A stretch of 64,000 nucleotides of DNA from Sinohyriopsis cumingii (Eukaryota > Mollusca > Bivalvia > Unionida > Unionidae), in the NCBI GenBank assembly GCA_028554795.2, contig CM068831.1, positions 61,622,769-61,686,768 of the forward strand. Direction: 5' to 3'. This document shows, in pieces, positions 5,116 to 63,790 of the stretch. Each line of letters begins with the position of its first letter. Within the stretch, counting starts at the first letter, position 1. The position numbers were made by a program, and so were the translations under genes. The notes under the pieces were generated by a model, which had not been told where the DNA came from, made no database searches, and saw only the letters and a list, made by a program, of their open reading frames with translations.

Positions 5116-5121
5116 CTAAAT

Positions 5122-5122
5122 G

Positions 5123-5156
<34 letters not shown>

Positions 5157-6560: not shown

Positions 6561-6722
6561 CTGGACACTGATCTATACATGACGATTGTTCAAAGCGGTT
6601 CCCAACACAATCAGCACCACCTCTAGCTGGTGCGGGGTTGTTACAATCCCGAGTTCGGTTATTTGTCTTCGTGTTGCAATTGCAATGGCTCCATGTTCCC
6701 CACGTGCCCCAGTTACCATTAA
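6561..6722 (-). CDS. TSP1-domain exon (left gene)
   Basis: A 162-base phase 1-1 exon with a TTTAG acceptor and a GTAATG donor. It begins NGNWGTWGTWSHCNCNTKTN and continues with a CNNPAPARGGADC segment ending SSCIDQCP. It has the two to three aligned tryptophans and six cysteines of TSP1. Length and sequence are nearly those of 4954-5115, including the last base of each intron junction. N-glycosylation sequons (NNRT, NRT) are visible. Confidence 0.88.
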
Positions 6723-10740: not shown

Positions 10741-10950
10741 TTGACAAAGTGATGGCACGAACGAAAGCAACAGGTCACGGACTAAAGACTTCCCCAAAAA
10801 GGGAATGGTCTAAGACTGCAAGGAAACCCTCATTCATGGTACGGTCAAGACTCGGGCGACTCAGGTCTAAGACTAATCTGGAGACTTCGCTAAACATGCT
10901 TCGCATGTCCAGTTTGGATTTACTTGATGATGATAAGAACTTAAACGTCA

Positions 10951-11312
10951 ACATTTTCAGAGGTATTTTTATGTGTGATCAATTACAAAAGCAACCAAAC
11001 CGTGTTGAAACCGAAATAATTAATCTCAATGGAATTTCTGGTCCAGGTACTCACTGTGTTGCATACGCGATTGATCTACGTGGAGATGGTTGTTTTTATT
11101 AGTATCGGCTGGCTCCAGCTAAAGCATTTCTACGATATAGTTGCTTAGCTGGTGAAATACCAATCTGGTATTCAACATTACCAATACAAAACAATAACTG
11201 ATCCGCCAATATGTGGCCGTGAAGTACTCCATGTGCTCAACGCTCTATCAAGGTCCCAAACACTACCTCATAAAGTTGTGTACGAGTATATCGCGTTGTC
11301 CAACGTTTAAAA
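10951..11312 (+). pseudogene. Adenain-type cysteine protease, fossil (element 2)
   Basis: Related to the protease at 59640-60011. The hallmark IFRGIFM start is followed by an IINLNG segment and a GPGTHCVAYAIDL segment that holds the catalytic histidine position, then a region matching PPICGREV around the catalytic cysteine. Such proteases mature capsid proteins in adenoviruses and Polintons. It is broken. Confidence 0.65.
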
Positions 11313-11332
11313 CAGGCCTTAGTGAATATGCA

Positions 11333-12060
11333 ATGGTAGATATTTACCTACGTTTTGCTTGGAGTCTTACTCAAGGCAAACCGAAAGATGAATTATCAAA
11401 ATATGCAACCCTCAACAACGTCAAGGATGAACCCGCTAATCATTTGCGTCTAGCCGATGTAAACCAAAATGTTGTTGTTGTTTTTCAGCATTAGCAAGGA
11501 CAATTAAAGCCAAGCAATTTCCCGTTGACATATATTATTCTGCGGGTTCAAGATACGGCCGAAGATAAGTTAGTGGTGTTGCTAAAAACGGTACAACTAA
11601 AAACTCGGAGGAATCAATTCTTACACTCCTGAAAGATTACCGGCCTGTTGTATTATTGGTGTATTGAATTCGTCGCCAAACTACATCCTACTTAGAGTGT
11701 TCTAATTACATAGCAATAGGAATCTAAATAATAAACCATTCGATTGACTTTCAAAGCGATAATGCAGTGCAGCATTACATATACGAGCAGGCATGTTTTA
11801 AATTTGTTGGAAGTTCTGCAGTCCTGGACATAATTTCTTTTTACTGATGATGTAACTTCGAAATCAACTTTATGGACACCACTTAGTAAATCCATCACAC
11901 ATGGCACTGAGGTTAACGGCATATAATGGCTCTCCGTACTCGGCTTTACAAAATTTGCAATATCTATCACAATTTCACGGAATGTTCCCATTCCTGATTC
12001 CACAAGGCTGATCTTCTGGATCTGTGTAAGTGATACTGGAGCAATATGACAAAGAAACAT
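11333..12060 (+). pseudogene. Fibre-like gene, fossil (element 2)
   Basis: Follows the protease exactly as in element 1. Its start MVDIYLR with a downstream ELSKYATLN segment matches MVDIHGR and LPKYATKD at 60004. A later beta-rich stretch (FTKFAISITISRNVPIPDS) resembles a knob-like attachment domain. It is broken and contains the left unit of a 442-base internal duplication. Confidence 0.5.
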
Positions 12061-12243
12061 TCGTGGTGGAAGAAAAAGCCATCGGCCTGTTGAATTATTG
12101 TTGTATTGAATTCGTCCCTAAACTAACATCTATTTAGAGTGTTCTTATCACATAGCAATATGCATCTACATAATGAACCTATCGATTGACTTTCAACGCG
12201 ACATTGCAGCGCAGCATTACATATACGAGCACGAATGTTTATG
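11641..12243. repeat. 442-bp-spaced internal duplication
   Basis: About 160 bases starting CGGCCTGTTG at 11641 recur at 12083 (through the CATTACATATACGAGCA segment) with roughly 80 percent identity by eye. The duplication lies inside fossil element 2 and is probably an old tandem duplication. Confidence 0.75.
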
Positions 12244-12765
12244 GAAGACCCAACTGAAAAATATAATTAATGTGGAAACAGTAAATCTAAAAATATACCA
12301 CATACTAGTCTTTGTTACTGATATAAATATATACTATGCATCCGGGGTAGTCGCTGGAGCACCAAATATAATCGGATCATAATCGACTACATAAATAGGA
12401 GTAAGTATTGCAGTTATATCCAATGTTGCTGATAATCTTAATATCATCGCAAAAAATATATATGTATTCGGTTGATGAATTACATGAATATACAACTTTA
12501 CTATAACGGAAGCACTAGCACATTCGAATTATCATCGTTATTTTCATAGGAGCTTAAAGATGGAATAATATCAGATTAAATGTTCGAAGAAATGATTAAG
12601 GTTTACCATAAAGCAACTCTAACTCAAGAAACCGCCGTCTCAGACAAGCACAATAAAAATCTAAAGATTCCGCCTTCTCCAACATTCAAATTCCGGACTT
12701 AAATAATAATATCGCAATAATTACTTGAACATATCGTCACTAAACACAACACACCAACAATCAGG
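12244..12765. other. Element 2 interior, nothing recognised
   Basis: AT-rich sequence between the duplicated segment and the penton-type gene. No family is recognised. Confidence 0.35.
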
Positions 12766-14130
12766 ATGATATCAGCAAGCTCAACCAAGCCTGAGTTTGA
12801 TCTTAGCTTTCCAACGGCAATATCAGCTAAAGAAATAGCCTTAGCTCAATTGAGAGTATATTTTAGCTGGCCGAATATTAGATCATTCCATGGGTTGCAC
12901 GTAAATAAAGCATTAGTGTTTTCGTACCAAGATAAATGTGATGGAAGCCCTGATTGGCTATTGGTCTGGTCTTCCTACTGGCAATTATCAAATATAACAG
13001 ATCAATAGTGAATTCCAACGCAGGATTAAATCTAGAAAAGAATCCAAAATCGATATTAGGGCTCAAAAGCCAATATTATCGGCGGCAATGGAAATATCGG
13101 CACAAGATTATGTAGTACATGTATATCAGTCGTCGGTTTGAACTGTGTTAGAATGGCCAGAGATAGCACCACCAGCACCTGTCAGCACGATAGCACTGTC
13201 AACGCGCCCTCAACTGAGCGAATTTATCACAAACAAATAATCGCATTTGGAAAACATTCCAGAATATCATGGGTCTCGGATGTGGAATGAAATTTTTAAA
13301 AAAATGGACATTTCTGTATTTGGTACTTCTGGGATTAGAATCATGCGTGGGGGGAGGGGATTCGTCCCACAGAAATGAGTTGGAAGTATTCCAACCTTTT
13401 ACTTACCGAAGATAATATCAAAATGTTGTTTGATGGTTTTTGATAAATGAGTATGTCATTTAGTCGAAGGATGAAATTATCAAACAAAGAGAAACCTGAA
13501 CTAAGTTGCACGGACTTTGAGAATGTTCACCAGAGCCTTATGCAGGCGGTTATTGAAGCCATCGGTGAATCTATCAATTTGCTTGATGGCACTAAACACC
13601 AACATAAGCAATTTCTCTTGAACAAATATTCGACAGCAACAACTCAGCTGTCAGAGGCAGTTCTGCCAACATTTAAATTTCCTGGGTTTAACGCCGACGA
13701 GCTGAAGGAAAACGTCAACGCAATCATAAATGAATACTATCCTCAACTCGTTTAGGCATGAAAAAATACCTCCTCTTCCAGGTATTCTCAAACATAACAA
13801 TGACCCAGACAGCGGTGGTCGTCATATATCACCAGATATTGTCAATATTGCATTAACAATAACAATCAATATTGTATGTATGCGGTCTATGGCAGCTATC
13901 AAGTAGATCACGAAAGATCTAGACATGCGCAGTAAGGATATATCCTATATTTATTCACCCCTGAAGTTACGCCTGGATTTTTAATTATGTCAGTACATGT
14001 TAATCCGGTATATCTACGACGCCATAATCCGCTATTGTCTCGGATAGATTTTAGACTTTACGACGAAAGTGGACATATGCTTGATTTAAAAAATAAATCT
14101 TTGATAATAAGATTATGTGTGAGATTTTGA
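12766..14130 (+). pseudogene. Penton-type minor capsid gene, fossil (element 2)
   Basis: Three separate stretches match the better copy at 61448-62847: MISASSTKPEFDLSFPTAIS with AKEIALAQLRVY; the PTFKFPGFNADELKENV region; and the C-terminal segment PVYLRRHNPLLSRIDFRLYD. The C-terminal motif resembles the last strands of the jelly-roll penton proteins of Polinton and adintovirus relatives. It is broken. The stretch 13010-13440 between matches is only weakly similar. Confidence 0.65.
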
Positions 14131-15222
14131 TAATAATCAGGGAGTAATAAAATGTCTAGCCCGGGTACTTATCCCAACATGCCTTTAAATTTTCGGAATT
14201 CATAATATAATGAATATTTATTTAAAATAAAAGCCCAAAATAGACAGAATAATGAGCGATTTCCCGTTCCATGGGATTCCTTCATTTTGCCAATAACTGC
14301 CGTTTCAAGCCATCAGTAATGCCTTTTTTTCTTCGGATATCTTTCTGAATATCCTTGTATGGGGTACCCTTCATGATGCCTTTTTTCTTTCTGGATGGCA
14401 TTCTTTCTTAATGTCCTTTTCTGTGGCACACTTCAAGAGGGTGTGGACTCATCACTCTTGCTGTGGAGTTTTTGTCGTTCTAGTTTTCCAATTTTTTAAA
14501 AATTTTATGCACACCTCACCCTAAATCAAACCCCTGAGAGTGCAGAATAGCACCGACTATATTGTCCAACATGGTGGGAGGTGTATACAGATGTATTTCT
14601 GGGGGAACCCAAATTTATTAAATTGCGATTATCGCCGAACCGCCGACAAATTTGTAAGACATGGGATTGGAACGCCAGACATCGAGTACGAACATTCGCA
14701 GCAATAATCGCTTGCTCACGGATCCTTCATACGATTTTATGTTTCAATAAATTATTATAATGTTAACTATACCTGTAAATCCAGAATAGCTTACCTGGAT
14801 TATATACAAGGGGCGTGGCGTGTATGCCCCTTTTATTTTTCTGAATTGTCAGGGACATTATCAAGGCCTATAATGTACAAGAGAGACCGGCAGTCAAAGG
14901 GGGACAAACAAACGAACAATCATCAGTGGCCATTATAAATTATTACGTAGTTACAAGCGAGGCTACAGTTTAATTACTCTACCGAAGGGAGTTTTACTTG
15001 CCAGAGTAATCTCCCTGCATCTGGAGTGAGTTTTGCATACAATTGACGACTACAACAAAATATATAATGGAGTCAAACTAGATTCAGGAGTGGATATACT
15101 GGAATATTATCTTTTGTTTGTATTCTTTAATGAAATGTTGATCTGGTTATATTATCTGCGACACATTGTACTGAAGGTGTGAAAATACAGAAATAGTTAA
15201 TAGTAGCATTTATCAGTTTACA
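14131..15222. other. Element 2 interior, unassigned
   Basis: No gene family is recognised. Around 14310-14400 a phrase starting ATGCCTTTTTT..CTT occurs twice within 60 bases. Lysine-rich minus-strand frames exist there but are too short to name. Confidence 0.35.
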
Positions 15223-15417
15223 TTATGTTTCTTTGCCTGTCTCCGCAATCACAGATCTTGCACGCTTATCATGTGTTCCAGTATTTTCACGTTTACAATT
15301 CTGACTCTGTGTAATAGTCTGCAAATTATTTAAATAATTATTTCTTGGATCTGAATCAATATGATGAATACCAAGACCGTCTTTGATTAGACCATTATAC
15401 AACTGATACACAAACAT
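15223..15417 (-). pseudogene. HNH endonuclease fragment, fossil (element 2)
   Basis: The minus strand encodes LGIHHIDSDPRNNYLNNLQT followed by ITQSQNCKRE. The HHIDxDxxNNxxxNL core with downstream SQN and R is the HNH nuclease fold of homing and phage-type endonucleases, with two histidines and the asparagines of the metal site. It runs opposite to the rest of the element. In such elements HNH genes may be cargo or a stray homing gene. It is only a fragment compared with full HNH proteins. Confidence 0.7.
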
Positions 15418-15954
15418 GTGAAAGAATATTTAAAAAAAAAAACAACAGAGAACATAACATAACCAGCATTATTTACAAAACAGACTGATTTTTAGTCGAC
15501 ATTTCCTGATGATATCAGCACGAGATGCCTCATAATTCCTGATGATGGAATGTTTCACAAATTCATCTTTTCTCCATTTATACATTAAATATTATTTCTT
15601 TAAATTATTATTTTACTGTTTGAAAAATATTTTTGCTGCTAACCGGAAAATCATCCTTTTTCATTTTCATCATTTTTTAAATAATAATATAATTTAAAAG
15701 CTCTGCATATTCTACCTCTACAGTCTACACACAAATGCGTTTCACCCTAGACTCCGACACTACACTTTAAAAACGGCTTTGGCTCAAGACACGCTCGTCG
15801 CAGACTCTGCATGTAACATCCACATAATTCATTTACACAAGCCGGAGTACAAAGAGTTGCAGATCCAATCATCATCAACTCACATGTCTTTGATTGAATC
15901 ACTATATGTTTGTTTTGAAGTTTAATTTAAATATATAATTACCTTAATTAGAAC

Positions 15955-16554
15955 ATGGAGGAATTTAAGCTCTCTAAAACTAGATTCGATCTTGACAGAA
16001 TAACCCTTGACTTACAGAGCGAGGTCTAGTTGTTTGTGATTTGACGAATAAGACTCCAATCAATTGTATCTATGAAGCCAAGAGAGAGTTTAGCAGCGAT
16101 GGTGCGACTCATGTGTGGTCAACATTTAAAATTATACAGGACGACATAACCTCTGACATGGTCAGGATTGATATTATAATGAATGATCAAAGAGCGAGAA
16201 CAGTTACTCGTTATCTTGACAAACAAAAATCATTTTTTAAAATAAAATTTTATGTTGCTGTAGACCACATCTAGATTATCCGTGACAAAAACAACCCTGT
16301 TCAAGAATCACACCACGCAGGAGATATTTACGTTAAGTACAAATTTCAAACCAGGAATGTTGATTGGTTCTGATAAGCCATATTATGGATCAGCATATCT
16401 TGTGGTATGTGTGGTTACACTCAAGACTGGGTTATTCGTTCTATTCCCCCCTTTAAGTTCACCCGATTCATATAAATGTTTAACAGGCACATTACCTAGT
16501 ACTGACTGTTTTAAGGAAGATTCCTGCCGTTGTGCTGTTGTTTGTTTTTGGTGA
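15955..16554 (+). pseudogene. Unassigned genes of fossil element 2
   Basis: Plus-strand open stretches begin MEEFKLSKTRFDLDRITLDL and, further on, TNKTPINCIYEAKREF and FKPGMLIGSDKPYYGSAYLV. I recognise no family. Position between HNH and ATPase, and the shared strand, suggest element genes. Remnants are broken. Confidence 0.35.
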
Positions 16555-17750
16555 ATGCATTGATAGGTTTCAAAGAAATTCCACGATTAATTTAATTATT
16601 TAATGGTATTATTGCAACCTTTTCACGAGATCTGTTCAGAACTTTTGTAAGGGATATTTCCTGCGCCTATTGATACTCAAACAATCTCTCAGCAGGTTTT
16701 CTTTTCAATATTTAAATGATTGACTGATTGCAGTGAATGATGTTTCATCAGATTGTATGTGGCTGCATGAAGACATTCTTTGTTAGGGTCGATCTGCAGC
16801 AACTGTGGCCATATCAGCCTGACACGTTGATAAATTCATTTAAATGCAGATTCATGTTAATTTGATGTTTTGTTGATAGTGGTTCTGCTTTTGATATCTA
16901 CTTGAAACATCAACGGCAGTCAAGGCGTATGTGTATGTATGTGATTGACGTCTACCAGTTTTAAAAGTATCATGAGGTGAAAACAAAATATCTGACTGAT
17001 GAGCTTCATTGGAAATGCTGTTATCAAAATGTGCGTACTGAATTTTTAAGGCCGTGGTAGGTACATGTGCCATATTGCCTGTCGTGCTGAACAATTTGCA
17101 GCAACCGTAGTTACGTTACGTTGCAGTTACGTTTGCTGCATCAGCAATATTACCATTCGCTGCTCTACCCTCCAGTATCCTATTGGGTTATAATAAATTG
17201 ATTCCATTATTATAATAATAAAAGGCCGACTAATTACCGGCTCCTAGTACTAGTTTACCATTCATCTCAAATCTTATCAGCCAATGAGCAAGCAATTCTC
17301 TGAGAGATTTATTTTTTTACAGACTTTATAGTGAAATAACTTCATGACTACAATATGTCATTGTTGCAAATGTAGATTTCTGTACGCGACATCATAAAAA
17401 TGGCAAGCTTGATCAATCGCATTTATTAAATGCTCTGCATACCGTGATTGATCTGTTTCGTCAAGGCGGATATCAAGTCGGGTTCCAAGACCACATTAAT
17501 TATATCCAGCAAGATGATTCTCGCCAGGAAGCTTAGTCCATGAAGCATCTGTCAATTTTCCGAGTGAAGTAGTGATATATCTGCATGTTGCATGAGAGAT
17601 CAATCTGTATTTATTTATATCACATTTCACACACTTGCTGTAAGTGCACGCTTTTATTACTCTTCGTTATTGTTTATAATCAACTGTTGGGGGTGGATGC
17701 TCTGATCGAACACAATATACATTCAAATACTTATTATATAATCAGACAAC
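16555..17750. other. Element 2 interior, nothing recognised
   Basis: No coding similarity is recognised on either strand. Confidence 0.35.
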
Positions 17751-18562
17751 ATGAATATCATTGATTTTTCAGCGACACGAGAGAAGGAAAAGTTAATCAT
17801 CATCCAGTGCTACCAACTTCAATCAGATCATTTATCACGGGCCCATCTGGTTCATGTAAAACAAAATTGTTAGTTAATCTAATAATGAAATGAATTAAGT
17901 GTAAAATATATTTAGTGACGCCATCTACAGATGACCAGCCATGCTACAACATGCTGAAATATTTTAATGAAGAAGCAATGTTGATGGACGAGGATGGAAT
18001 GATGTTATTTACTTTATTATCGATATTGTTAGCCAAACAATTAAATCCAGCTCATATATTTTCCCAAGGCAGACACAATACACTGATATTATGTTACTCA
18101 GCGATAGACATAAGTACCACAAATGATCAGAGGTAACTGTAAATGTTTCTTGTATTTAGCGCAGTTGATACCCATAAACTAATATATATTCACCAGACTT
18201 GGGATTTACTAGACATGAATATGTTTAAAAACTTCTTCTCAAAAGCACAAGCGATTCCTCAAGGATTTATCACGATACATTTACATTATCCTCGATCACT
18301 GTATCGTGTAGGTCTTGATACAAAATTTTGTTGAGAGACCTGTTGTGTTCAATATTTCATTTGGGCTGGAACTATTAATTTAGAATTATTTATCTCCGAA
18401 AATGCAAAATGCTCATCTTTAAGAAATATTCCTGCACATAGACATTTGCTAGGATATATTTTGAATTTAGACAAGGAAATCTTGGATAATATTATTTTGG
18501 AACAACACAATATTGTTGGCACCTCACCACTACACAGGCACATCAACACCTTCAACGTTTGA
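17751..18562 (+). pseudogene. Packaging ATPase (A32/FtsK-HerA type), fossil
   Basis: Starts MNIIDFSATREKEK. Downstream comes SIRSFITGPSGSCKTKLLVN, a Walker A (GPSGxxKT) placed as in Polinton and virophage genome-packaging ATPases. Later segments IFSQGRHNT (family FSRGRH motif), HKLIYIHQTWDLLDMNMF and the LYRVGLD end also fit. The enzyme would pump DNA into the capsid. It is part of element 2 and broken. A further open stretch around 18417-18562 (LNLDKEILDNIILEQHN) is unassigned. Confidence 0.7.
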
Positions 18563-19464: not shown

Positions 19465-19620
19465 CATGGCATTCATCCGTGCACGATGATTCTTCACGCC
19501 GATGACCTAGACAATCAGCACCACCATTAGCTGGAGTTGGATTGTTACATTCTCTCTCTCGGGTTCGTGTCTCCGTATTGCATATGCACTGACTCCATGC
19601 TCCCCACATGCTCCAGCCAC
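19465..19620 (-). CDS. TSP1-domain exon (left gene)
   Basis: A 156-base exon, phase 1-1, with a CATAG acceptor and a GTACGT donor. It encodes GWSMWGAWSQCICNTETRTR with a CNNPTPANGGADC segment ending SSCTDECH. It is the same TSP1 subtype as 4954 and 6561. It is the most 5' convincing TSP1 exon of the left gene in this window; the intron to the next exon is about 12.7 kb because it carries fossil element 2. Confidence 0.87.
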
Positions 19621-30490: not shown

Positions 30491-30898
30491 TGTAAAGATT
30501 CTACTATTTCCAGTGGTATGTCAAATAAGTTCCAATATTGATTGTTTTAACGTGCCTGGAGTCTTGAATATGCTAATGCTATAGTGACATATAGTGTGAC
30601 GGTGTGATAAAGGTCTCTTGATGTACCATAATAGTATAACCCAAATATTTTCATTTTTAAAATCACTGTAATTCCAAAATATTCCAATATTGAATGTGTT
30701 AATGTAAAGATTCTACTGATTTCCAGTGGTGTTTCAAATAAGTTCCAATATTGATTGTTTTAACGTGCCTGTAGTCCCAAATATGATAATGGTACAGTGA
30801 TCTATAGTGTGACGATGTAATAAAGGTCTTTTGATGTACCACAAAAGTATGACCAAAATATATTCATTTTTAAAATCACTGTATTTCCAAAATAATTT
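30491..30898. repeat. 222-bp tandem duplication
   Basis: The unit starting TGTAAAGATTCTACT at 30491 restarts at 30713 and continues to about 30898, with shared phrases such as TTCCAATATTGATTGTTTTA and CATTTTTAAAATCACTGTA. The second unit is slightly shorter. Confidence 0.85.
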
Positions 30899-50328: not shown

Positions 50329-50437
50329 TCAGATACCTCCATGTAACCTGAACATAGACGTACGCATTATTAATTGTAAATTAGTAGATTTCCGTTTGAG
50401 AGAACACATGAGATTCATGAACATGTATAACGTTTAC
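49949..50437 (-). other. Intron splitting Ig domain 1, with (GATA)n
   Basis: About 490 bases including a GATA repeat at 50273-50328. Nothing else is seen. Confidence 0.6.
50273..50328. repeat. (GATA)n microsatellite
   Basis: About 14 tetranucleotide units. Confidence 0.95.
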
Positions 50438-50586
50438 CTCTTGGTAAAACCAGGTGACGTTAAGGTCCGGTACACCTGTCAGACATAGAAGAGTGATGTT
50501 GCCACCAACACCAGTTTCGGTAGGACCGAATATTTCTGGCGGAACTAACTGGACAAGGGGTGATAAGGTTGTAATCGTTGTCTCTT
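50438..50586 (-). CDS. First half of Ig domain 1 (right gene)
   Basis: A 149-base exon, phase 1 to 0, with a TTTTTCCAG acceptor and a GTAAAC donor. It encodes ETTITTLSPLVQLVPPEIFG then GNITLLCLTGVPDLNVTWFY. It has a short Thr-rich linker and the first Ig cysteine plus the core tryptophan. Two N-glycosylation sequons (NIT, NVT) are present. It follows the TSP1 exon 51966-52109 in phase. Confidence 0.85.
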
Positions 50587-50883
50587 CTGGAAAAAGTAAG
50601 CTACATAAAGTAACGATAATGAGCAACCATGTCAACTGTAACTGCATTACAATTTCCTTTTCGATCCGATATGTAATGAAGACAGATGTAATAGTAATCA
50701 TTATAGTAATATATTCTTTTAGTTTCAGTGACTATTTCATAACCTATCAACTCGCGTTTTGTCTGTCTCTCTGTCTTTCAACAACTCGTTAACCTCGAAA
50801 ATCGCTGTATCAAATGTCATATAGGTGTTCTTATTAATCAGGTACTGAGTAGTGTATTATTTTCATCCCCTTCATCGAGAAAC

Positions 50884-54088: not shown

Positions 54089-55010
54089 AATGAGAAAACA
54101 AATGCATCATGTGTAGCAGTGATAAACTATTTATGTGCTCTAGTTCCATTCATGATGTGTTATGTTCATATTTGCAATCGATGGGCTAACGAGAATAATG
54201 TTATTTATGTCTTGACATCAGTTATTACTTTTATAATTAATTGTAATTGTAAGAATTGAATCTTGTAGTTTTAGAGTATTCATGAAACCATGAGGTCTGA
54301 AAATCCATTGCATATTATACACTCATCCCTATGGCAATACCTGCAGTACATAATCTATACTGAAAACGACATGCCTTCTTAACGTCTAGAAAAAGATTTC
54401 AGACCATTATTCGAGAACCTGTCTATTCGTCGGGAAATTTAAAATTATTAAACATTTTTATATGCACCCGTTTGCTTGTACATGGATTTAATTTTCTTCC
54501 ATTATCCATTTCATAAACTTCAATATTAGACAACATAGTGTATACTGTAATTTTGATATCATTTATTTAGTTTCTTACTAAAAAAAATAGCATGTCAACT
54601 CTTGCTGCAAGGCTATGTATTACATTGAAATATATATTTCTACTAAATTAAAATTGTTTGCGATGCTATCAGTGAAACATGGAACATTAGGAACATTTTA
54701 TTACCATTAGCAAGAAAATTAATAACTAAATGTTATTATAATTAGTTTTAAAACATGATTACCAGGACAAATCTTTACTTCACAACTCTCGCCGTCAACG
54801 GCCAGTCCAGGACAGTCGTGTTTCTCATGCTCTGTACGAGGGTCAATACAGAACCTGGCAATATACCGGAATCCGGAACCACAACTTCTGCTACAGGCTG
54901 ACCATTGAGTCCACTCTGTCCATACTCCAGGACCTTAATAATGTCACGTGAATTAAATATTGTACATAAAGGGCCGACGTTACAGCGAATCATATGGTTT
55001 AAATCAGGAA
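54089..55010. repeat. Segmental duplication, right copy
   Basis: Diverged copy of 1-1227, with the same order of landmarks (ATGAGAAAACAAATGCATCA, then ATGGGCTAAC, then the TSP1 exon, then CGAATCATAT). It is shorter because the segment matching about 540-850 of the left copy is missing. Confidence 0.85.
54763..54933 (-). CDS. TSP1-domain exon (right gene)
   Basis: A 171-base exon, phase 1-1, paralogous to 986-1156. It begins GVWTEWTQWSACSRSCGSGF and ends ESCEVKICPG. The open frame, all six cysteines and both splice sites are kept, while about ten residues differ, so selection has probably maintained both copies. The next exon upstream would lie beyond fossil element 1. Confidence 0.85.
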
Positions 55011-55790
55011 TGTATAATCTTTGTGCGAGAGGCCATATTGTATTTTTTGTCTTACCCATGTTGCTTTTATAAATCTGACGTACCTTTTCCACTACCAGTC
55101 TGAACAAGTTATAAAAGGTTGGCGGGCCGGATAGAAAACTGTATTGGGCCAGATTCTTGACCGCGGGCCATATGATGGACAACTGTGATTTAAATTATGA
55201 TGTAGCGCTAACTATATGCACCCCGTTCAAAATGCAAATTAATCAACAGATAATGGTACATCCGAGCTATCTTCTTTGTTATGACTTATGAATTTAATAT
55301 TTAAAATAATATTTTTATATCTTGTTGATTCAACAATCAATTAAATTGGGTAAACATAAATTTCTGGTCGATAATATATTAATAACTACAATTAAATTAT
55401 AATGTGGCATAAGAAACTACAGAGATTGAAATGCAAGTCAAATAAGATAACGTAACAGTTTTAGCACTAGGTTTCTTCAAAATGGACCAATGAACCTTTA
55501 TCTACAGAGTGCTGTAAATTGTTGCCCCTTGTTTTTTTATTGAATCGCATATGTATACGAATTAAATATTGCCTTCATATCATATCAGAAAATATTCGAA
55601 TGCGAAGCCCGGATCATGTGCTTTTCTCGCACTATGACATCAACATTCTTTATGAATGTTGCTGTAGTAATGTTCAAAGTCGGCCAATCGTTCTTTTTAT
55701 TGATATGTTTCTTAAAAGTTATCTTTCACGGATAATAAATTAGAAACAAATGAAAATTAATTTAACATGAAATAGACGAGCAGCCGGGGG
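55011..55790 (-). other. Intron, nothing firmly recognised
   Basis: Around 55100-55175 a GC-richer patch (GGCGGGCCGG, GACCGCGGGCCA) looks like a small transposon scrap. The rest is AT-rich. Confidence 0.4.
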
Positions 55791-55961
55791 GGGGGAGCGA
55801 ACCATACAAATTTGAGAAGGTTCCGAATGTCGAAATAAGATCTCCACAAGGAAGGGTTTCAACCGTGAATAACGTCGACTACGTTTCAAGAGGAACTCTC
55901 GGAGAGATAAGCCTCTTTGGGAGGTCCTCCTGGGTTAGTCCAAATGTGATTTCTGGTTGAA
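55791..55961 (+). pseudogene. Unassigned element 1 gene piece
   Basis: Open plus-strand stretch PYKFEKVPNVEIRSPQGRVS with TVNNVDYVSRGTLGEISLFG. No start codon and no known family. It is at the left border of the recognised block and is probably the tail of an upstream element gene. Confidence 0.35.
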
Positions 55962-56049
55962 ACCCCATTAATGGCGCTTCGATTACAAAATTATAAAAAT
56001 GAACCAATTCGTTGTCGTCGCCCTCCCTGCTGCTATGAATTAAAAATTT

Positions 56050-56545
56050 ATGTTACTGATAATGGCCAACATTGGAGAAGCATATACCACTAGATTAGCT
56101 CGAGAGCGACTAAAAGCGATCAAACAATTTCTTCCTGTGAGAGATTCTGTGAGACCAAAATTACAAGCGCGGCAGGAAGCACAACTTGAATATGCTACAG
56201 GCACAGAACAATTAGTTAAACCCGTTACAACAGCTACTGAAAAAGATGCGGCGGTCACTGAAAGAGCTTTATTGTGAGATATTAAGGATGAGGAGGAAAG
56301 AAAAAGGGTATTCTTTCAATATTAAAGCAAACTGCTGAGCAAGCTGAAAAAATTGCGAGGAGAACTAAAAATACAAAAAAAGATTTTACGAGATCATCCA
56401 ACTGATATAGCTGCAGCTCAGCCTCCACCCGTCTAGGAAGAAATATTTAAAGGTATCAGCGAAATTCGCGCTGAAATTGGTGATATAAAAAAATCGCACA
56501 CCAGCAACATAAACAGCAACAGAAACAGAACAAACCAGGACTAGG
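56050..56545 (+). pseudogene. Coiled-coil protein gene, fossil (element 1)
   Basis: Starts MANIGEAYTTRLARERLKAI, rich in Ala, Glu, Lys, Arg and Thr, and continues with helical heptad-like stretches such as FKGISEIRAEIGDIKKS. It is likely a coiled-coil virion or scaffolding protein; comparable helical genes lie upstream of the capsid block in relatives. Broken. Confidence 0.4.
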
Positions 56546-56568
56546 GTTAATATAAAAGATTCACCGAT

Positions 56569-56886
56569 ATGGCTATTAAATCTATAAGGGCCGTTTCGAC
56601 CGTTTATGGTTTAGCTGAGTTTGCCATGCAAAGTTTTAATTACCGAAACCGGGTTTTAAAACCCGAGTATGTCGATGATGATGTAAGTCGCGAAAACTGG
56701 TACAAGTGGATATTTCGCATATACTATCATGCTGATTTAGCCAGAAACAGTGATACTAGATTTATTGCGTTTAGTAACGCAATTTATAGTTATTTTAAAC
56801 GTCTACAACAACAACAACCGCATGGACAGCAACAATCTTCTCAGCAACCGCAGAGAAAACAACAACTTCCCTCCCAGCAGCGGTAG
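56569..56886 (+). pseudogene. Helical, Gln-rich small protein (element 1)
   Basis: Open 105-codon frame MAIKSIRAVSTVYGLAEFAM, then RENWYKWIFRIYYHADLARN and a Gln-rich tail. It overlaps the next gene in another frame. No family is recognised. Confidence 0.4.
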
Positions 56887-57145
56887 AAAAAAACAACAAC
56901 CACAATCTCCTGGTGCTTCTGGCTATGGTTTGGGAAGTGGTTTTATTCCCTTTCCTAACAGTATCTTCAATGATGCGAAACGGTTAGAAGTTCTCATAGG
57001 AGGAAAGCGAGCTGGGAATAACTCACTGGAAATAATTAATGAAGCAGATGATATTTGCCGGTGTTTATTTCAAGGTGGTATCATGGATATCGATATTTAC
57101 GGAGTGCTTATTAGTGAGCTCGTTGATGACTACTACAGTGACTAG
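56750..57145 (+). pseudogene. Small conserved element protein (element 1)
   Basis: Its C-terminal half, GSGFIPFPNSIFNDAKRLEV then LIGGKRAGNNSLEIINEADD, fits a small helical protein often seen next to capsid genes of such elements (RLxxLxxxxxAGNNNxxxxxE followed by a short helix). Function is unknown. The N-terminal part overlaps the preceding gene. Confidence 0.45.
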
Positions 57146-57189
57146 TTGTTAAATAAACGAATAATTAAATAAAAATGATCGTACACATT

Positions 57190-57515
57190 CTCATCGTGGG
57201 CCCGTACCAGTCGGCGTGGTAAACTCGCGATTACCAACCTATAAAGCAACTTACGGAGACGGACTCGCTCATGCTGTTCAGGGTATATTCAGAAGGATAG
57301 CTTTCAAAGCAATACCGATCGCAAAACAATTATCAATGAAAGCTATTGACGTTGTTCGTGATAAAGCTGCTGGCGCTATTGGTAACGTTGCCAGTAAAGC
57401 CTTCTTGGCAATCAAGGACAGACTAGCACGATTAATACGCAGACCGAAAGTGGTCCAGCCACAACCGGTCAAATTACCAAGCACCGAAGTGATGCCTGCA
57501 GATGTCAGTAAGTAA
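57190..57515 (+). pseudogene. Minor capsid (pVI-like) protein (element 1)
   Basis: Segment YGDGLAHAVQGIFRRIAFKA followed by a long amphipathic helix (KQLSMKAIDVVRDKAAGAIG) and a basic RLARLIRRPK stretch. A GxGLxxxxxxxFRR start and an amphipathic alanine-rich body are typical of the small minor capsid or membrane-lytic protein placed before the major capsid gene in Polinton relatives. Confidence 0.55.
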
Positions 57516-57633
57516 TAAATCAAGCTGCAAATCAAAAACGAGCAGCGCTGATAAATCAAGGGGCTGAACAAATAAATACAAGTCTGGTGTCGGGAAGTGG
57601 TCTTCGTTTTAGAAGATAACAAATTATAATAAA

Positions 57634-58991
57634 ATGTTTAAACGTGTATCTGACATAGCGTTTGACATGGACGCACCAGTACTCAAGAATGAATCCGTGC
57701 GCGATAATCAGCATTATTCTTATGAATCAATATCGCCAAATCAACGTGGACGAATTGAAATAAGAGTTCAGGATGCAAGTAGGTATTTCTTGCCCGCTGA
57801 AGCATTTATTGAAGTCACAGGTGAACTTGTAACAAACGCTGCAGATAGTGCAGCATACGGAGCTGATGTCAAAGTTGGATTTGTTAATAATGGCATCATG
57901 GCGTTATTTAAAAGTGCCGCCTATATGATTGATGGAAACGAAATTGACACAATCCAGGATAATGTTGACATTGCTACAACGATTATAGGCCTAGCAAGCT
58001 ACTCAGATGATTATATTAGATCAGCTGGCCCAAATATGATGTTTGCTAAGGATAATTCTAACAATCCTGATCACATTTCTGTGGCCATGGGTAATGTGAG
58101 AAACGCAGCTGGTACCGCGGAGACACCTGTAGTAATAGGAACAAATCGAAATTACAACTTAGGTTTTGATAGACGTCAATTAATGTTAAAAGATGTTCGT
58201 AGAAGATTTTCATGGCCAATTCCACTATCCCACATCTTTGGATTTTGCAGAAAGATCAGAAAGGTCATTTTTGGAGCTAAACACACAGTTGTTCTTCATC
58301 GAGAAGGTGATGATAATGATGCTATCTAGCGAGAAGATGGTGCTGCTGATGGTAAAGTAATATTATTTAAACTCGCGTTATGGATGCCGGTAATGTCACC
58401 ATCAATCGCTGAAGAACAGCGTCTACTTTCTTTAATGGATCAAGGTGGTAAATCAATATTGTCGTGGTTAACGGTAATCAAAATCCTGTCAACGTTTTAT
58501 TCACTTGGCATATATCATCACAGCAGGGTGTTTCTGCACCAAGTTATGTCTTTGTTGCTTTTCAACTGGTTGAACGATTGAACCGTCAAGGAAGAAATCC
58601 AATGGTATTTGACAATCTTAACGTCTCTGAAGTATCTTTAAGAATAAACGGGCATCAATAACCATCTAACGATATAATGTTGAATTTTGAAAATAATTAA
58701 GTAGCACGTGCATATCATCGCTTGATGACATTCATGGGATGTGATCAAAATATATACACTGGTTTACAAATAACACAACTGGATTTTACAACGCTGTACC
58801 CGATTTATTATTTTTCGCTGGAACGTCTTGATTTAGTTAAGCAATCTGTCGTTAATATACACTTCAGAGCAATCAGGCGTTCAGCTGATCATTACAGAAC
58901 AATCGCATTCATACTCAGTGACAAATCAATGATACTTGAAAGTGTTGGTGACCGAATGAGAGTCGTTGATGCCCCAGTGGAAAACATGTAG
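57634..58991 (+). pseudogene. Double-jelly-roll major capsid protein, fossil (element 1)
   Basis: The start MFKRVSDIAFDMDAPVLKNE leads to RIEIRVQDASRYFLPAEAFI, a NNGIMALFKSAAYMIDGNEI segment, and SHIFGFCRKIRKVIFGAKHT, which corresponds to a conserved SHIFGFCxDYDKVxxGxKHTL signature of a metazoan virus-like capsid family. The C-terminal region (FTTLYPIYYFSLERLD, VNIHFRAIRRSADHYRTIAF, ILSDKS) matches the last jelly roll. The capsid protein would form the hexons of an icosahedral shell. Broken, with a few breaks. Confidence 0.78.
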
Positions 58992-59021
58992 ACAATTAGA
59001 TCAATCTCATTAATTATAAAA

Positions 59022-59524
59022 ATGTCATATAGTCACGTTAATGTCACTCTGACTCCTGGTCAGGCGAAAAAAATACAATCGAAAAACGCGAGCGCATGTG
59101 GGACGACGATAACACTAAAAAATGATCAAATTGCTAATGGTTGCCCAAACAAGTTATCGTTGACTAAAACTCAACTAAATCATCTCAATAAAGCAAAATA
59201 AGGAAAAACGGAGTTCAACTTGATTTCGCTCCAAAAGAAATCAAGGACATGATTCAAAGCGGTGGTATATTTTCACTCCTCGCAGTAATACAAGCGTTGA
59301 TAACTGCTGCTGCCCCAGCTGTCGCAAAATCAGCCGCGTTAGGCGCTGTTGGCACCACTGCTGGAATGGCTTTAAAGAAAGCAACTGGAAAGGGAATTTT
59401 ATACAAGGAGAACTTAAAGAAAAGATCATCACGGACACAAAAACCAACAAGGCGTCCAAAAAAGTCCAATATGCCTCAGCCGGGTCGTCTAAAATTACCA
59501 GTGGAACAGAAGGAGCGGATCTAA
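59022..59524 (+). pseudogene. Small virion proteins: TLTPGQ and hydrophobic segment (element 1)
   Basis: MSYSHVNVTLTPGQAKKIQS then KLSLTKTQLNHLNKAK is a short protein family found beside capsid genes of such elements. Directly after it come IQSGGIFSLLAVIQALITAA and an Ala/Gly-rich region ending in a basic tail, resembling the GGFLPLLA..hydrophobic..basic proteins (compare adenovirus pX or pVI). They may be one or two genes. Broken. Confidence 0.5.
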
Positions 59525-59639
59525 GACTTGCAGGAACTCCGCCTTCATGGTACCCAAAACGGTTCTGAAAACCAGCGGCCTCACGCCGATGTCAAATTTT
59601 GATTTCCTCGATGCCGCTAAACAATTAAATATATAAAAT

Positions 59640-60011
59640 TTCAGAGGTGTTTTCATGCGGAATCAGTTACCACAACAACCGAATAATCCAGAAACTGGAA
59701 TTATTAATCTCAATAACAGCGATGGTCCAGGAAGTCACTGGGTTGCTTACGCACTCGATCTACGCGGAATTATCTATTTAGATTCGTATGAGTTAGCACC
59801 GCCAGTTGAATTTCTAAAATACGTACAAAGCACTCCCATTCCAGTTAGGTACTCAACACTACTAACACAAACACTAACCGATCCACCAATATGCGGCCGT
59901 GAAGTAATAAATGTGCTTGACGCGTTATTAAAATCAACCAAACCACCCCACAAAGTCGTGCACGAGTATACCGCGGACCGATTTAAACAATCCCTAAAGA
60001 ATAATGGTTGA
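59640..60011 (+). pseudogene. Adenain-type cysteine protease, fossil (element 1)
   Basis: FRGVFMRNQLPQQPNN, IINLNNSDGPGSHWVAYALD with the catalytic histidine, IYLDSYELAPPVEF with the acidic partner, and PPICGREVINVLDALL with the catalytic cysteine position. This is the compact protease (C5/Ulp1-like fold) that matures capsid precursors in adenoviruses, Polintons and adintoviruses. It follows the hydrophobic virion gene and touches the fibre-like gene. The cysteine follows PPI rather than the usual Q/S-D-C context. Confidence 0.72.
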
Positions 60012-60976
60012 TATTCACGGAAGATCTCTCAGCGCAAAGGGTAAAAAACGCGACGACATAGATTTACCAAAATATGCGACTAAAGATGAAATCGACAATC
60101 TTTTAACGCTATCCAGGATAGACCCAGATTGGGTTGTTATTTTTGAGGACCGACATGGCAAGCTAAAAACCAACAATATCAAATGGAATTACATAGTTTG
60201 CAGGGTTTTTGGAGCTACCCTGGATAACATCCCTGTGTTGACTGACAGCGGAAAAATCAGAGACTCAAGTATATAGTTTACAACCATCAGAGATGAAATC
60301 ATGCAGAGAGTTGCTAATCGCCTAAAAATACCGGTGACACAATGACAGGTGAACTCAACATGAAAGGAAACTAAATAGTAGCTGTAACAGCTCCAAAATT
60401 CGACAACAAACTATACTTCGACAAGGTAGACAGTAAATTATCCACGCTGCCGGTGGAGTATGAGTTTTACGAAGGCGCTTTTGCAAGATTTCGCAGAAAT
60501 TATCAAAAAAACCGATGAGCCCATAGATAAATTCTTTGGTACTCCGCTCACCGTTGACGCAAAACTTTCTGATATCAAAACCAATATTGACACGATCAAA
60601 CAAACACAGCAAGATATCGTAAGTGGGATTCCTGAGATCGTTAATAAAACCAGCTTGATTAAAATCCCACCTGAAGTTACTCCCGGTATCATCTGGATTT
60701 GCAACATGGTCAAAACAAAATAATGTTATCAAGTATACCGCAACAGTCACTGGAGTGTACAGGCTGTCTGTGTTCAGTGCTGCAAAATTTGAGATTTTCA
60801 CAACATATCCCTGGCGACATTCCACCGACAAGTTTTCCGGGCTTGTGACTATCATATTAAATAGCGTAACCGAAGAAACATTTATATTGGAAGCCGCAGA
60901 TAAGAAATTAACCGCAACATCTTACTGGTGGTGTTTGGAATTTGTAGCTGAAGCACGTCAATTGGTTACTGCTTAA
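60004..60976 (+). pseudogene. Fibre-like attachment protein, fossil (element 1)
   Basis: Starts MVDIHGRSLSAKGKKRDDID with LPKYATKDEIDNLL, then a conserved phage tail-fibre motif, GDTMTGELNMKGN at about 60333-60371, then helical segments (DIKTNIDTIKQTQQDIVSGI) and a beta-rich end (TATVTGVYRLSVFSAAKFEI). The order stalk-trimer-knob suggests a receptor-binding fibre. It overlaps the protease by a few bases. Broken. The left copy at 11333 shares the N-terminus. Confidence 0.6.
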
Positions 60977-61039
60977 AATGATAATTGACCCCCTTAACAG
61001 AGCTTAAGACGACAACATTTAATGTCCAGCAATACAGAT

Positions 61040-61445
61040 AAGATCAAGTACGCGAATGGCAATCAGAGTTAAAAACTCTCAAGAACAAATGCACAACAAA
61101 AGTAGACGTTGAAGTATACTTGGTATCCGCGTTAGTTGCATCCACCGGAGTAGTATTATCAGCACTAACGCCAGTAACAACTCCAATAACAGTTTCATCA
61201 TCAGCGGAAATTGTATGTGTTTTTAATATAATCGCGAAAAAAATATCAACGTGCACGAGCATAAAATTGCACGATTATGTCACGCGGCTAAATGCAACAA
61301 CAGCAGCATACTTAAAATTATCGTCGCTGATGTAATCAAGCCTCAACGGCGAATCAATATCAGATTCCGAATTCACGTCAGTGGCAAACACAAACGCAAA
61401 CTGCAAGCAGTCAGAGTCTCACCATTTGAAAACAACGAAAATGAA
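61040..61445 (+). pseudogene. Two-helix membrane-type protein (element 1)
   Basis: VREWQSELKTLKNKCTTKVD precedes a hydrophobic stretch (VSALVASTGVVLSALTPVTT) and a basic helical segment, with GESISDSEF further on. This order (WexxLKxxKNK, hydrophobic segment containing TPxxxPI, H/IKL helix, ISDxEF) fits a widespread unnamed family beside penton genes in animal virus-like elements. Function unknown. Broken. Confidence 0.5.
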
Positions 61446-61447
61446 TA

Positions 61448-62847
61448 ATGACAGAATTACTTCAGCAGATAGCCGAAAATACAAGCCCCAAGCGAACTTC
61501 AATGATAACAGTAAGCTCAACTAAACCAGAATTCAATATTAATTTTCCAACTGCGATTTCAGTAACAGAGATTGCACTAGCACAATTACGAGTATACAAC
61601 AGCTGGCCAAATATCATACAAAAATCATTTGGTGGATACCAGCAAATAATTCGGTTGTGTTTGCACATAAAAATAAACCAGATGGTACACCCCACTGGAA
61701 CGTTGTTGGAATACCAACCGGGTCTTATCAAATCGAAGAAATCAATGAGGAATTACAACGTCGAATAAAAAATATCACAGGGAAATAATCCAAGATAGAA
61801 ATAACTGTTCATGAACCAACGATCGAAATAAGCACTCCTGACTACGCCGTTGACATATATCAATTTTCAATCAGAACAGTATTAGGATGGCCTGAAATTC
61901 CACCACCGACACCACCAATACCACCAGAACCTAAAAAATCTGATTATGTCACAGACGCGCAGTCATACCACGAAATTGAACTATCGTACAAACAACATTT
62001 ACTTAGTATAAAAAATTCAGATTTGTTCAATCGTTTTGAATTCGTCGGTAAAGACCAGATGTTTTGGGCTTTTAAGCCAACACTAATTCCCATAGAAAGA
62101 TATCCTATAAGTTTTGAAGTGAGTGAAATGATTGACTACTTTAAAATCATTAATCCAGAACATAACACACAACTACAATGACTACGGTAAAGTTTCCAAG
62201 AACATCTTTTTGATATAACTTTACGCAGCGAAATCATTAAACACGTATAAATATTAAATCAGCTCGTATCCGACATGAAATATTTTCACCGGCCAGCAAT
62301 CCTGGCGATAATAGATGATGTTGATAATAATTCTAAACAACAATTTTTGGAAGCATGCTCGCTGACAGAAGCTACGCTACCAGATTTTAAATTTCCCGGG
62401 TACATCGCTTAGGAACTAAGGAAATCTGTTAATGACCTCATTGATGAGTTCTTTCCTGACATACTCGCACAGTACAACAAAATGCTACCACCGGTAACTA
62501 TTCTTCGGCACAACAATGACCCAGAAGGACAAGGCAGACATGTATCCCCGGAAATCGTAAATATAACCCCTGTGGTCGCAGTCAATCTTGTGTGTGATGT
62601 CATTGATGGCAGCTATAGCACGGACACAACAGTATCAAATCAAGCCCAGCAAGGATTTTTTCTTTATTAATTGACACCAAAAGAACCACCTGGATTTCTG
62701 ATTGTGCAAGAGCCGATCAATCAGGTCTATCTGCGGTGTCATAATCCACTGTTATCAAGAATAAATTTCAAACTAACAGACCAATCAGGCCACCTTCTGG
62801 AGTTGAGGTATGAAACGTTAAATATTAATTTACTTGTGAAATCCTAA
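61448..62847 (+). pseudogene. Penton-type minor capsid protein, fossil (element 1)
   Basis: MTELLQQIAENTSPKRTSMI with SSTKPEFNINFPTAISVTEI and ALAQLRVYNSWPNI at the start, then GIPTGSYQIEEINEELQRRI, DYAVDIYQFSIRTVLGWPEI, VVAVNLVCDVIDGSYS and the C-terminal PINQVYLRCHNPLLSRINFK. The LAxLxxYxSxPNI, PTGSYxIxxIN and LxxRxHNPLLSRI elements match penton-like single-jelly-roll proteins of metazoan Polinton/adintovirus relatives. Broken, with several breaks. Confidence 0.65.
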
Positions 62848-62894
62848 AAATCTCATCTTAGATTTTCTCAGGCGGATGTTATATTTTGCACGAT

Positions 62895-63365
62895 TCGGAA
62901 AGTAATAAGGTCGTCAAAATCATGAAAATCGTCCGATTTGTTAATTCTGAAGGGGTAATTACTAGTTAAAGTCATGCACATCGACTGATTTGCTAATTTT
63001 GATAGGGTAATTACTAGTCAAAATCATGCGAATTCAACGTTTTTCAGAAAAAGCAAAAAAAATATATATAATATTTTATTGAAATCTGCAAGTGCATAAA
63101 TGTTATAAGAAATTTATTTTTTTACTGCGCATCGACTGATTTGTAAATTCTGAGGGGGTAATTACTAGTCAAAATCATGAAAATCGTCCGATTTGCTAAT
63201 TCTGAAAGGGTAATTACTAGTCAAAATCATGCACATCGACTGACTTTTTAATTCTGAAGGGGTAATTACTAGTCAAAATCATGCGAATTAAACGTTTTTC
63301 AGTAAAAAGCAACACAAAATATTTATTGAAATCTGCAAAAAATTTATCTTTTACTGACAGACCCT
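62895..63365. repeat. Higher-order 52/255-bp tandem repeat
   Basis: A 52-base unit containing GTAATTACTAGTCAAAATCATG recurs at 62902 (weak), 62955, 63007, 63158, 63210 and 63262. The two groups of three units, each followed by an AACGTTTTTCAG..TTATTGAAATCTGCAA spacer, form two about 255-base higher-order units. It lies just 3' of the penton gene and could be a replication, packaging or transcript-end region of the element. Confidence 0.85.
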
Positions 63366-63396
63366 GATTTCTAATTAATCAAGCGAGTATTATACC

Positions 63397-63531
63397 ATGT
63401 ACCAACAAGCGAAGGTTTTCATACACGACAAGCAAGTACTTGAAAACTACATCAGAAACGTGTTTACACAGTTTCTAGTCGGCCCATTTGATTTGGTTAT
63501 TGATGTATACGGTAACGAGGATTTTTAATTG
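63397..63531 (+). other. Short unassigned ORF downstream of element 1
   Basis: ATG-started frame of 44 codons, MYQQAKVFIHDKQVLENYIR and on, ending NEDF. Same strand as the element and flanked by its repeats, so probably an element gene remnant. No family is recognised. Confidence 0.35.
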
Positions 63532-63639
63532 ACAAATCGCAGCTGGATAAACTACAGCGAGAACGTATTTCTATGGTCACGTGAGATAAAGATCAGATTC
63601 TAAATTACTCGCACTCCTGCATTAAATCTGATCGACTAA

Positions 63640-63790
63640 AGGGAATATTATCTAACTCATCAGATTGATGCAGGTCAGATTGATATAAGTAAAAAAAATA
63701 ACTCATCGGATTCATACAAGTCAGATTGATATAAGTGAAAAAAATATTATCTAACTCATCAGATTGATACAAGTAAAAAATATTATTTTT
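63640..63790. repeat. Short tandem repeat of about 45-50 bp
   Basis: The phrase TAACTCATCAGATTGATACA plus AGTCAGATTGATATAAGTAAAA recurs about three times, imperfectly. It is a different motif from the 52-base repeat. Confidence 0.75.

Follow-up and report, generated by a model that had tools for sequence, protein, structure and literature searches.

Introduction

The systems closest to the element described here are Tlr of Tetrahymena, the Polinton-like viruses (PLVs) with Tlr1-like replicases, and the Polintons/Mavericks and adintoviruses. Tlr1-like replicases combine a palm domain, in which the first Asp of motif C is lost, with a superfamily 1 (SF1) helicase and a C-terminal HNH or GIY-YIG domain, and structure modelling placed vOTU and terminal protein (TP)-like domains upstream of the palm (PMC11071308). 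Tlr has an integrase, an ATPase, and an SF1 helicase but lacks a protease (PMC4028283). Vertebrate Mavericks show 6-bp target site duplications, and 134 intact elements were reported from 17 species (PMC8097293). We analyzed a 64,000-nucleotide stretch, referred to as the window, of the genome of the bivalve Sinohyriopsis cumingii (assembly GCA_028554795.2, contig CM068831.1, positions 61,622,769 to 61,686,768), in which a sequence-only reading had proposed a structural gene block of a capsid-bearing virus-like element at positions 55,791–63,365.

In animals, PLVs have been reported from stony corals, and PLV-like elements are associated with entomopoxviruses (both cited in PMC12220804). When protist genomes were surveyed and metazoan capsids included for comparison, those of cnidarians alone among the metazoan capsids fell outside the Maverick–Polinton cluster (PMC10120064). 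For the hard clam, a table row reads Maverick 1.69, 7091, 31,368,848, which is taken here as percent, copies, and bases (PMC8905726). Both the abundance of Mavericks in a clam and the presence of PLVs in corals have thus been published, and the hard clam row shows that bivalves with many copies were known before.

Results

The capsid genes are part of a complete, inactivated provirus

The capsid-gene block is the left half of one old, complete, inactivated provirus of a double-stranded DNA (dsDNA) virus with a double-jelly-roll (DJR) capsid. This insertion (copy 1) covers 15,682 bp of the contig (termed C8; C8:61678547-61694228), starts at window position 55,779, and has its right end outside the window; beyond the window end, remnants of HNH, replicase, integrase, and ATPase genes follow up to C8:61694228. 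Consecutive plus-strand gene remnants are present in the table of open reading frames (ORFs), as the sequence-only reading had stated, and the segments matched on the protein level between 56,846 and 63,650 follow the same linear order as the open frames in other copies (Table 1). The match to the gene A type used as query is confined to 56,846–57,142. The term structural gene block is too narrow, as the block belongs to an entire provirus that is bounded by terminal inverted repeats (TIRs) and flanked by a 5-bp target site duplication. Its extent had to be revised as well: 55,779 is the first position of the element, 62,844 the last of the large late gene, and another small gene occupies 63,391–63,650. 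In comparison with the open copies, 23 in-frame stops and seven frame changes were counted over the matched parts of the window, more than the roughly ten or more breaks that had been estimated for this fossil.

Ten pieces of the window were scanned singly against Pfam. The capsid piece (57,613–58,329) matched PF21738 (DJR-like_dom) with 29.2 bits at a cutoff of 27 (E 7e-7), whereas the other nine gave no match above the cutoff. The capsid genes of two open copies matched the same family with E-values of 5e-17 and 2.6e-17, which bears out the capsid-bearing element with a DJR major capsid that had been proposed. At the second segment for which a family match had been expected, the protease piece (59,637–60,011), the matches were below threshold (Pfam Peptidase_C5, E 0.15; PDB protease S273R, E 0.022). 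The weak match to S273R, which we take to be the protease of African swine fever virus, covers the stretch with the presumed catalytic His. An open-frame relative matched S273R with an E-value of 2.9e-5, and the proteases of open copies reached E-values of 0.013 and 0.0045 for Peptidase_C5, which is under the cutoff in all three sequences including the window piece. Judged by eye, the residues H, D, Q, and C stand in order and presumably fulfil the catalytic roles. The earlier call of an adenain-type protease was upheld as a putative assignment, less firmly than that of the capsid. Modest support was obtained for the proposed fibre-like protein: the proteins of open copies matched PF03906 slightly under the cutoff (E 1.9e-5 and 3.7e-5) and a PHROG tail fibre (E 9e-7), the likeness being to the N-terminal region of phage tail fibres. 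An endosialidase-chaperone domain was not found in this putative fibre with Pfam and PHROGs.

Of the unnamed neighbours at 56750 (gene A), 59022 (gene C), and 61040 (gene D), the sequence-only reading had said that they travel with the capsid genes and may be virion components. The first part is supported by open frames at the same places in other copies (A, B, and C in L006 and L010; C and D in L025 and L026). As to the second, genes A–D may encode virion parts, judging from their position. Gene C, the open frame of which overlaps that of the protease, is by eye a candidate for a membrane-active core protein. The copy closest to the window capsid piece overall (L004, 83%) has no full open frame and was left out of the tree, in which the window piece groups with the open copies L007 and L008 (three-row set, support 100/94).

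Element ends, gene order, and a probable exchange of end modules

The element borders were fixed from the left ends of two copies and the right ends of another two. Common to the ends is the 18-mer AGCAGCAGGGAGGGCGAA or a closely similar sequence. Both ends were found in four copies, with left/right TIRs of 302/299, 214/204, 209/210, and 271/263 bp and total lengths, calculated from the coordinates, of 15,675, 15,487, 14,966, and 15,682 bp (the last being the window copy). All four are flanked by 5-bp target duplications (GTATT, TGGTA, AAACT, and AGACG) and, because these differ, represent separate insertions. The gene order, which is a composite of several copies that each contributed a left, middle, or right part and of which none was read end to end, is TIR, A, B, capsid, C, protease, fibre, D, large late gene, and small gene, followed by two minus-strand genes (one of them HNH), the replicase, the integrase (minus strand), the packaging ATPase, and the second TIR.

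The ends of two otherwise nearly identical copies differ. From a sharp break inside gene A up to and including the capsid gene and gene C, 200-base bins of L010 and L012 are 91–100% identical; left of this break the two copies cannot be aligned (49–55%), most of gene A being affected (L010:1-812), and their TIR interiors differ completely. The left and right TIRs of either copy nevertheless agree (98.3% and 92.6%; gaps depress the second value). An end module therefore seems to have been exchanged and then copied to the other end, which would be easiest in a linear replicating genome. Several TIRs contain an inverted copy of the terminal 18-mer approximately 230–260 bp inward (window copy, Table 1; L031, L032, L023, L024, L076, and L077), which gives either end the appearance of a small independent unit.

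The replication gene and its linkage to the capsid gene

The replicase ORFs at the 72 best replicase places are mostly 1,160–1,240 amino acids long. In the three replicase ORFs scanned, Pfam reported the SF1 helicase domains AAA_19 and AAA_30, and upstream of the helicase the palm-like motifs DMTACYP and ATDS stand at the expected positions of palm motifs A and C. The SF1 helicase is clear, and a palm is suggested by the motifs. The C-terminus appears HNH-like by eye in one copy, and Pfam reports no such domain there. The remaining genes of the right half were assigned by Pfam: the rve integrase (PF00665, 33.8 bits at a cutoff of 32.6), the A32-type packaging ATPase (PF04665, E 1.2e-13), and the HNH protein (PF13392, E 8.8e-16). 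A chromodomain was not detected in the one integrase scanned (327 amino acids), for which Pfam lists only rve and DUF6140 at E-values up to 0.5. The phage collection contained no match for the replicase or the capsid.

A capsid place from the 91 best in the same subfamily was found within 20 kb of 24 of the 72 best replicase places. In all 24 pairs both genes are on the same strand and the replicase gene lies 8.9–10.7 kb downstream (listed start coordinates), at a chance expectation of about 0.1% per place. Two of the 24 pairs are the copy that supplied the queries and a near twin (C4 and C2), and since both lists comprise best places only, the other 48 replicase places say nothing about the absence of a capsid gene. 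Stop-free stretches were present at 72 of 72 replicase places (96–100% identity) and at 88 of 91 capsid places (90–100%), although such best-scoring places favour intact genes.

Maverick-type genes for family B DNA polymerase (PolB) are abundant in the same genome. The search gave 21,499 first-look candidates, the best 75 of which were scored, and none in 14 control genomes; open frames reach about 1,360 amino acids (e.g., L080, C7:122372215-122373930). This abundance could be taken to mean that the element is a canonical Polinton/Maverick or adintovirus with a protein-primed PolB of its own, which would also account for the DJR capsid, the protease, the rve integrase, the A32-type ATPase, the TIRs of about 200–300 bp, and the ends beginning with AG. 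The replication gene of the element, however, has SF1 helicase domains and no PolB match, and the target duplication is 5 bp in four of four copies in place of the 6 bp of vertebrate Mavericks (PMC8097293). In relation to 250 listed capsid places, seven of the 72 replicase places were located within 20 kb (8.3–10.6 kb) in contrast to none of the 75 PolB places, a zero that is weak by itself because only best places were compared, and that refers to the 250-place and not to the 91-place capsid list. We consider canonical Polinton identity very improbable and rejected it on the type of the replicase. The PolB Mavericks appear to be a separate population, so that two virus types would share one genome. 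The relationship to Polintons and adintoviruses asserted by the sequence-only reading holds for the capsid, the integrase, and the ATPase; it needs refining for the replication gene, which has an SF1 helicase and no Pfam match to PolB, and for the target duplication of 5 bp.

Abundance and integrity in the genome

The assembly searched comprises 2,904,868,851 bases in 1,138 contigs. The window capsid piece as query yielded 25,911 first-look candidates, and all 150 that were scored had E-values of 2e-100 or lower. Apart from the window itself, the scored matches were 69–83% identical, many of them in open frames of about 460–490 amino acids. An exact degenerate motif for the capsid residues SHIFGFCR occurred at 8,074 places (4,037 + 4,037), its reversed control at none. 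Each place probably corresponds to one capsid copy, and copies without the motif are missed by this count. If all 8,074 copies were full-length at 15.7 kb, they would amount to about 127 Mb or 4% of the genome.

Among the first 37 motif places on contig C1, a sample drawn without regard to similarity to the window, although the motif itself had to be intact, 23 have an open capsid gene (ORF of at least 440 amino acids with a normal C-terminus). These 23 genes span 61–100% identity, which indicates that many lineages coexist. When the 19 best capsid matches were added, 30 of 56 copies passed the open-capsid test, which accepted only copies with a near-exact motif and missed at least one open copy (L005, 454 amino acids). 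Two contigs obtained in a degenerate capsid-motif scan, L001 and L002, were discarded as chance matches: no frame of at least 110 amino acids on the matching strand lay over either match, and the three plus-strand ORFs scanned gave a ribonucleotide reductase in L001 and no capsid match.

Elements with such replicases have been described mainly from protists and algae (PMC11071308, PMC12721341, PMC12220804), which might raise the suspicion that a free virus or a protist contaminated the assembly. We regard this as extremely improbable in view of insertions with target duplications in chromosome-sized contigs, the 8,074 motif places, one copy between TSP1-like stretches (see below), and a range of examined copies from open to badly broken.

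Age of the insertions and selection on the genes

TIRs are expected to be identical at insertion in linear genomes with inverted ends. In the window copy, 17 mismatches were counted in 263 ungapped columns of the TIR pair, compared with two, two, and one in three open copies, the TIR pairs of which contain 3, 14, and 1 gap positions. If the TIRs were identical at insertion, the window copy would be several times older than these three.

Selection was estimated for 30 open capsid genes (435 pairs) by pairwise Nei–Gojobori (NG86) comparison, the ratio of nonsynonymous to synonymous divergence (dN/dS) being taken as the ratio of sums per dS class. With rising dS, it decreased from 0.365 (five pairs, dS <0.02) to 0.299 (7), 0.252 (6), 0.225 (20), 0.174 (52), and 0.144 (197 pairs, dS 1–2.5); 122 saturated pairs and, by subtraction, 26 pairs outside the classes were left out. 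The pairs are not independent, and the choice of open frames removes stops but not missense changes. Judged by these substitution patterns, the capsid genes are under purifying selection. For the other genes, with two to five copies each, dN/dS was 0.35 (A), 0.41 (C), 0.46 (fibre), 0.33 (485-amino acid large late gene), 0.38 (small gene), 0.25 (HNH), and 0.24 (replicase); gene B had 0.217 (sum) over five open copies.

Constrained capsid genes bear on the possibility that the element is a capsid-coding transposon which moves only inside cells, retains its capsid for an intracellular step, and forms no infectious particle. The very high copy number in one genome and the groups of nearly identical copies are in line with such a transposon. 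The phage-fibre-like gene together with the constraint on the capsid better fits spread from cell to cell, and the coexistence of many lineages of open capsid genes speaks in the same direction, while being compatible with a transposon too. A purely intracellular element is in our estimation unlikely, clearly less so than a canonical Polinton.

Features of the window and the second copy

The coordinates of the features are compiled in Table 1. A second, more decayed and partial copy (copy 2) at 10,791–18,328 comprises the right part of the element only, with the genes in the same order; protein matching found no match to the capsid or to genes A–C there. Because its proteins are only 29–58% identical to the open copies used as query, copy 2 is assigned to another lineage. 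A third copy at 38–42 kb, guessed from AT skew, was rejected, as no protein matches were found in that region.

Table 1. Features of the two provirus copies in the window (positions in the window; lengths in amino acids, aa, refer to open copies elsewhere in the genome).
Feature	Position	Strand	Remarks
Copy 1
Target site duplication AGACG, 5 bp	55774..55778	.	left copy; right copy follows the right element end, outside the window
Left TIR	55779..56049	+	90.8% identity to right TIR; 17 mismatches, 8 gap positions in 271 columns
Inward inverted copy of terminal 18-mer	56017..56034		inside left TIR
Gene A remnant	56044..57145	+	at least 335 aa (cut by locus edge)
Gene B remnant	57192..57616	+	about 153 aa; one frame change
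Major capsid gene remnant	57631..58988	+	448 of 467 aa covered; 3 stops, 1 frame change; PF21738
Gene C remnant	59022..59562	+	208 aa; 1 stop, 2 frame changes
Adenain/S273R-type cysteine protease remnant (putative)	59511..59981	+	196–212 aa; 1 stop
Fibre-like protein remnant (putative)	59998..60973	+	342 aa; 7 stops, 1 frame change
Gene D remnant	61003..61539	+	192–201 aa; 3 stops
Large late protein remnant ("penton" of the sequence-only reading)	61451..62844	+	485 aa; 6 stops, 1 frame change
52-bp tandem repeats	62913..63325	.	between large late gene and next small gene
Small gene remnant	63391..63650	+	140–152 aa
Copy 2
Protease remnant	10791..11304	+
Fibre-like remnant	11333..11575	+
Gene D remnant	12209..12460	+
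Large late protein remnant	12706..14124	+
HNH/NUMOD endonuclease remnant	15133..15570	-
Replicase remnant	15955..16416	+	144 of 1035 aa
rve integrase remnant	16407..17216	-	29% identity, 10 stops
A32-type packaging ATPase remnant	17621..18328	+

On the minus strand, TSP1-like stretches were detected at 4835–5197, 6472–6765, 19343–19642, and 54722–54934, two of the four above the Pfam cutoff. They are likely exons of a host gene that is spread over the window. Copy 2 is flanked by the second and third of them, both slightly under the TSP_1 cutoff, and is probably intronic because of this position. The intron location that the sequence-only reading had assigned to the capsid block is therefore likely for copy 2 and was not supported for copy 1. 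A weak immunoglobulin (Ig) match under the Pfam cutoff is located at 50,384–50,731; like the TSP1 domains, it is compatible with an animal host.

Several repeats were noted in addition. Direct repeats at 54089–54985 and 1–1208 (84–93% identity, about 54 kb from start to start) belong to an unrelated repeated element adjoining copy 1. Inside copy 2, a 158-nt direct repeat (85%) occupies 11641–11798 and 12083–12240, 442 bases from start to start. A tandem repeat of a 213-bp unit spans 30489–30894 with almost two copies (89% matches), and the minus-strand segment 32457–32810 resembles by eye the end of a reverse transcriptase of a non-long terminal repeat (non-LTR) retrotransposon, for which Pfam gave no match.

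Discussion

The best reading of the data is that an integrating virus lineage of the PLV type was amplified massively, and partly recently, in an animal, and that the window copies are its fossils. Put more specifically, a dsDNA virus with a DJR capsid and replication of the PLV/Tlr type, whose lineage was amplified thousands-fold, very likely gave rise to this old and now inactivated provirus, the left half of which is the block in the window.

Some results weigh against this reading. The capsid gave no PDB match, either alone or as a profile, and the AlphaFold prediction for the window capsid piece alone reached a predicted local distance difference test (pLDDT) score of 32 and no usable capsid model. 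Credible family matches were absent for the 485-amino acid large late gene (Pfam, PHROGs, and PDB), which had been called a penton-type protein, and for gene A (Pfam and PHROGs), at the position of the supposed minor capsid protein, so that neither name found support; genes B and C have no credible family, and gene D has weak matches below the cutoff only. The closest hit of the large late gene in PDB, a depolymerase (E 0.57 and 0.073), was judged to be due to chance. Pfam found no PolB (DNA_pol_B) in three replicase ORFs at E-values up to 0.5, and a profile comparison of the replicase with the PolB of the same genome returned nothing, with very thin profiles (effective number of sequences, Neff, 1.07). 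No relative was found in IMG/VR by queries with the capsid or the protease piece of the window, with an eight-row capsid alignment, or with a three-row replicase alignment. At 14 of the 37 sampled places the capsid gene is broken or truncated, and for the protease (dN/dS 0.69) and gene D (0.79), each with one little-diverged pair, constraint is not evident.

Under the PLV-type reading, the life cycle could proceed as follows. The rve integrase would join linear, TIR-bearing DNA to the chromosome and thereby duplicate 5 bp; the duplication and the integrase gene are both present. The replicase would copy the linear genome, probably in a protein-primed manner, and, judging from the genes alone, the ATPase would package it and the protease would mature the DJR capsid that takes it up. 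The fibre may mediate attachment. Spread in the germ line or between animals would lead to reinsertion. This genome records thousands of insertions of the lineage, two of which are the old and since decayed ones in the window.

A wider scenario can be put forward tentatively and with less than even confidence. An animal lineage, probably of bivalves, might be under continuing germ-line invasion by many coexisting virus lineages in which a Polinton-like capsid module is combined with a helicase replicase of the PLV/Tlr type. Open capsid genes would persist in thousands of their copies, beside the separate PolB Mavericks, and their ends would evolve by module exchange between co-replicating genomes. 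If most copies were transmissible, few animal genomes would hold a larger reservoir of dsDNA proviruses that are still intact.

An element with a Tlr/PLV-type replicase in a mollusc was not found in the literature searched; a paper of 2016 on helicase–polymerase fusions (PMC5499653), outside that search, may contain one. If thousands of elements in an animal genome replicate in a PLV-like manner, this would extend the link between metazoans and PLVs, and many datable insertions would become available on which continued selection on capsid, replicase, and integrase could be used to distinguish viruses from transposons. The label Maverick in clam repeat annotation could mix two virus types.

Compared with the systems known so far, the element resembles Tlr of Tetrahymena and the PLVs with Tlr1-like protein-primed PolB (pPolB)–SF1 helicase replicases in its rve integrase, its A32/FtsK-type ATPase, and its DJR capsid. 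Its replication protein shares with the Tlr1-like replicases the palm-like motifs with the first Asp of motif C replaced, the SF1 helicase, and, by eye, an HNH-like C-terminal end. Unlike Tlr, it resides in an animal and carries a putative adenain-type protease, a gene that Tlr lacks (PMC4028283); its HNH-like end also differs from the GIY-YIG of Tlr1 (PMC12721341). With Polintons/Mavericks and adintoviruses it has in common the capsid, putative protease, integrase, ATPase, TIRs, and a size of about 15–20 kb, and it differs from them by the absence of a Pfam PolB match and by 5-bp in place of 6-bp duplications. The C-terminal chromodomain of adintovirus integrases (PMC11071296) had no Pfam counterpart in the one integrase scanned. 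The hard clam Mavericks (PMC8905726) are comparable in occurring in thousands of copies in a bivalve, where they are known by a repeat label. The PLVs of cryptophytes and other protists (PMC12220804), from which the element is set apart by its animal host and by a fibre in which Pfam and PHROGs revealed no endosialidase-chaperone domain, likewise have TIRs of several hundred bp, 5–6 bp duplications, phage-like fibre genes, and distinct types within one genome.

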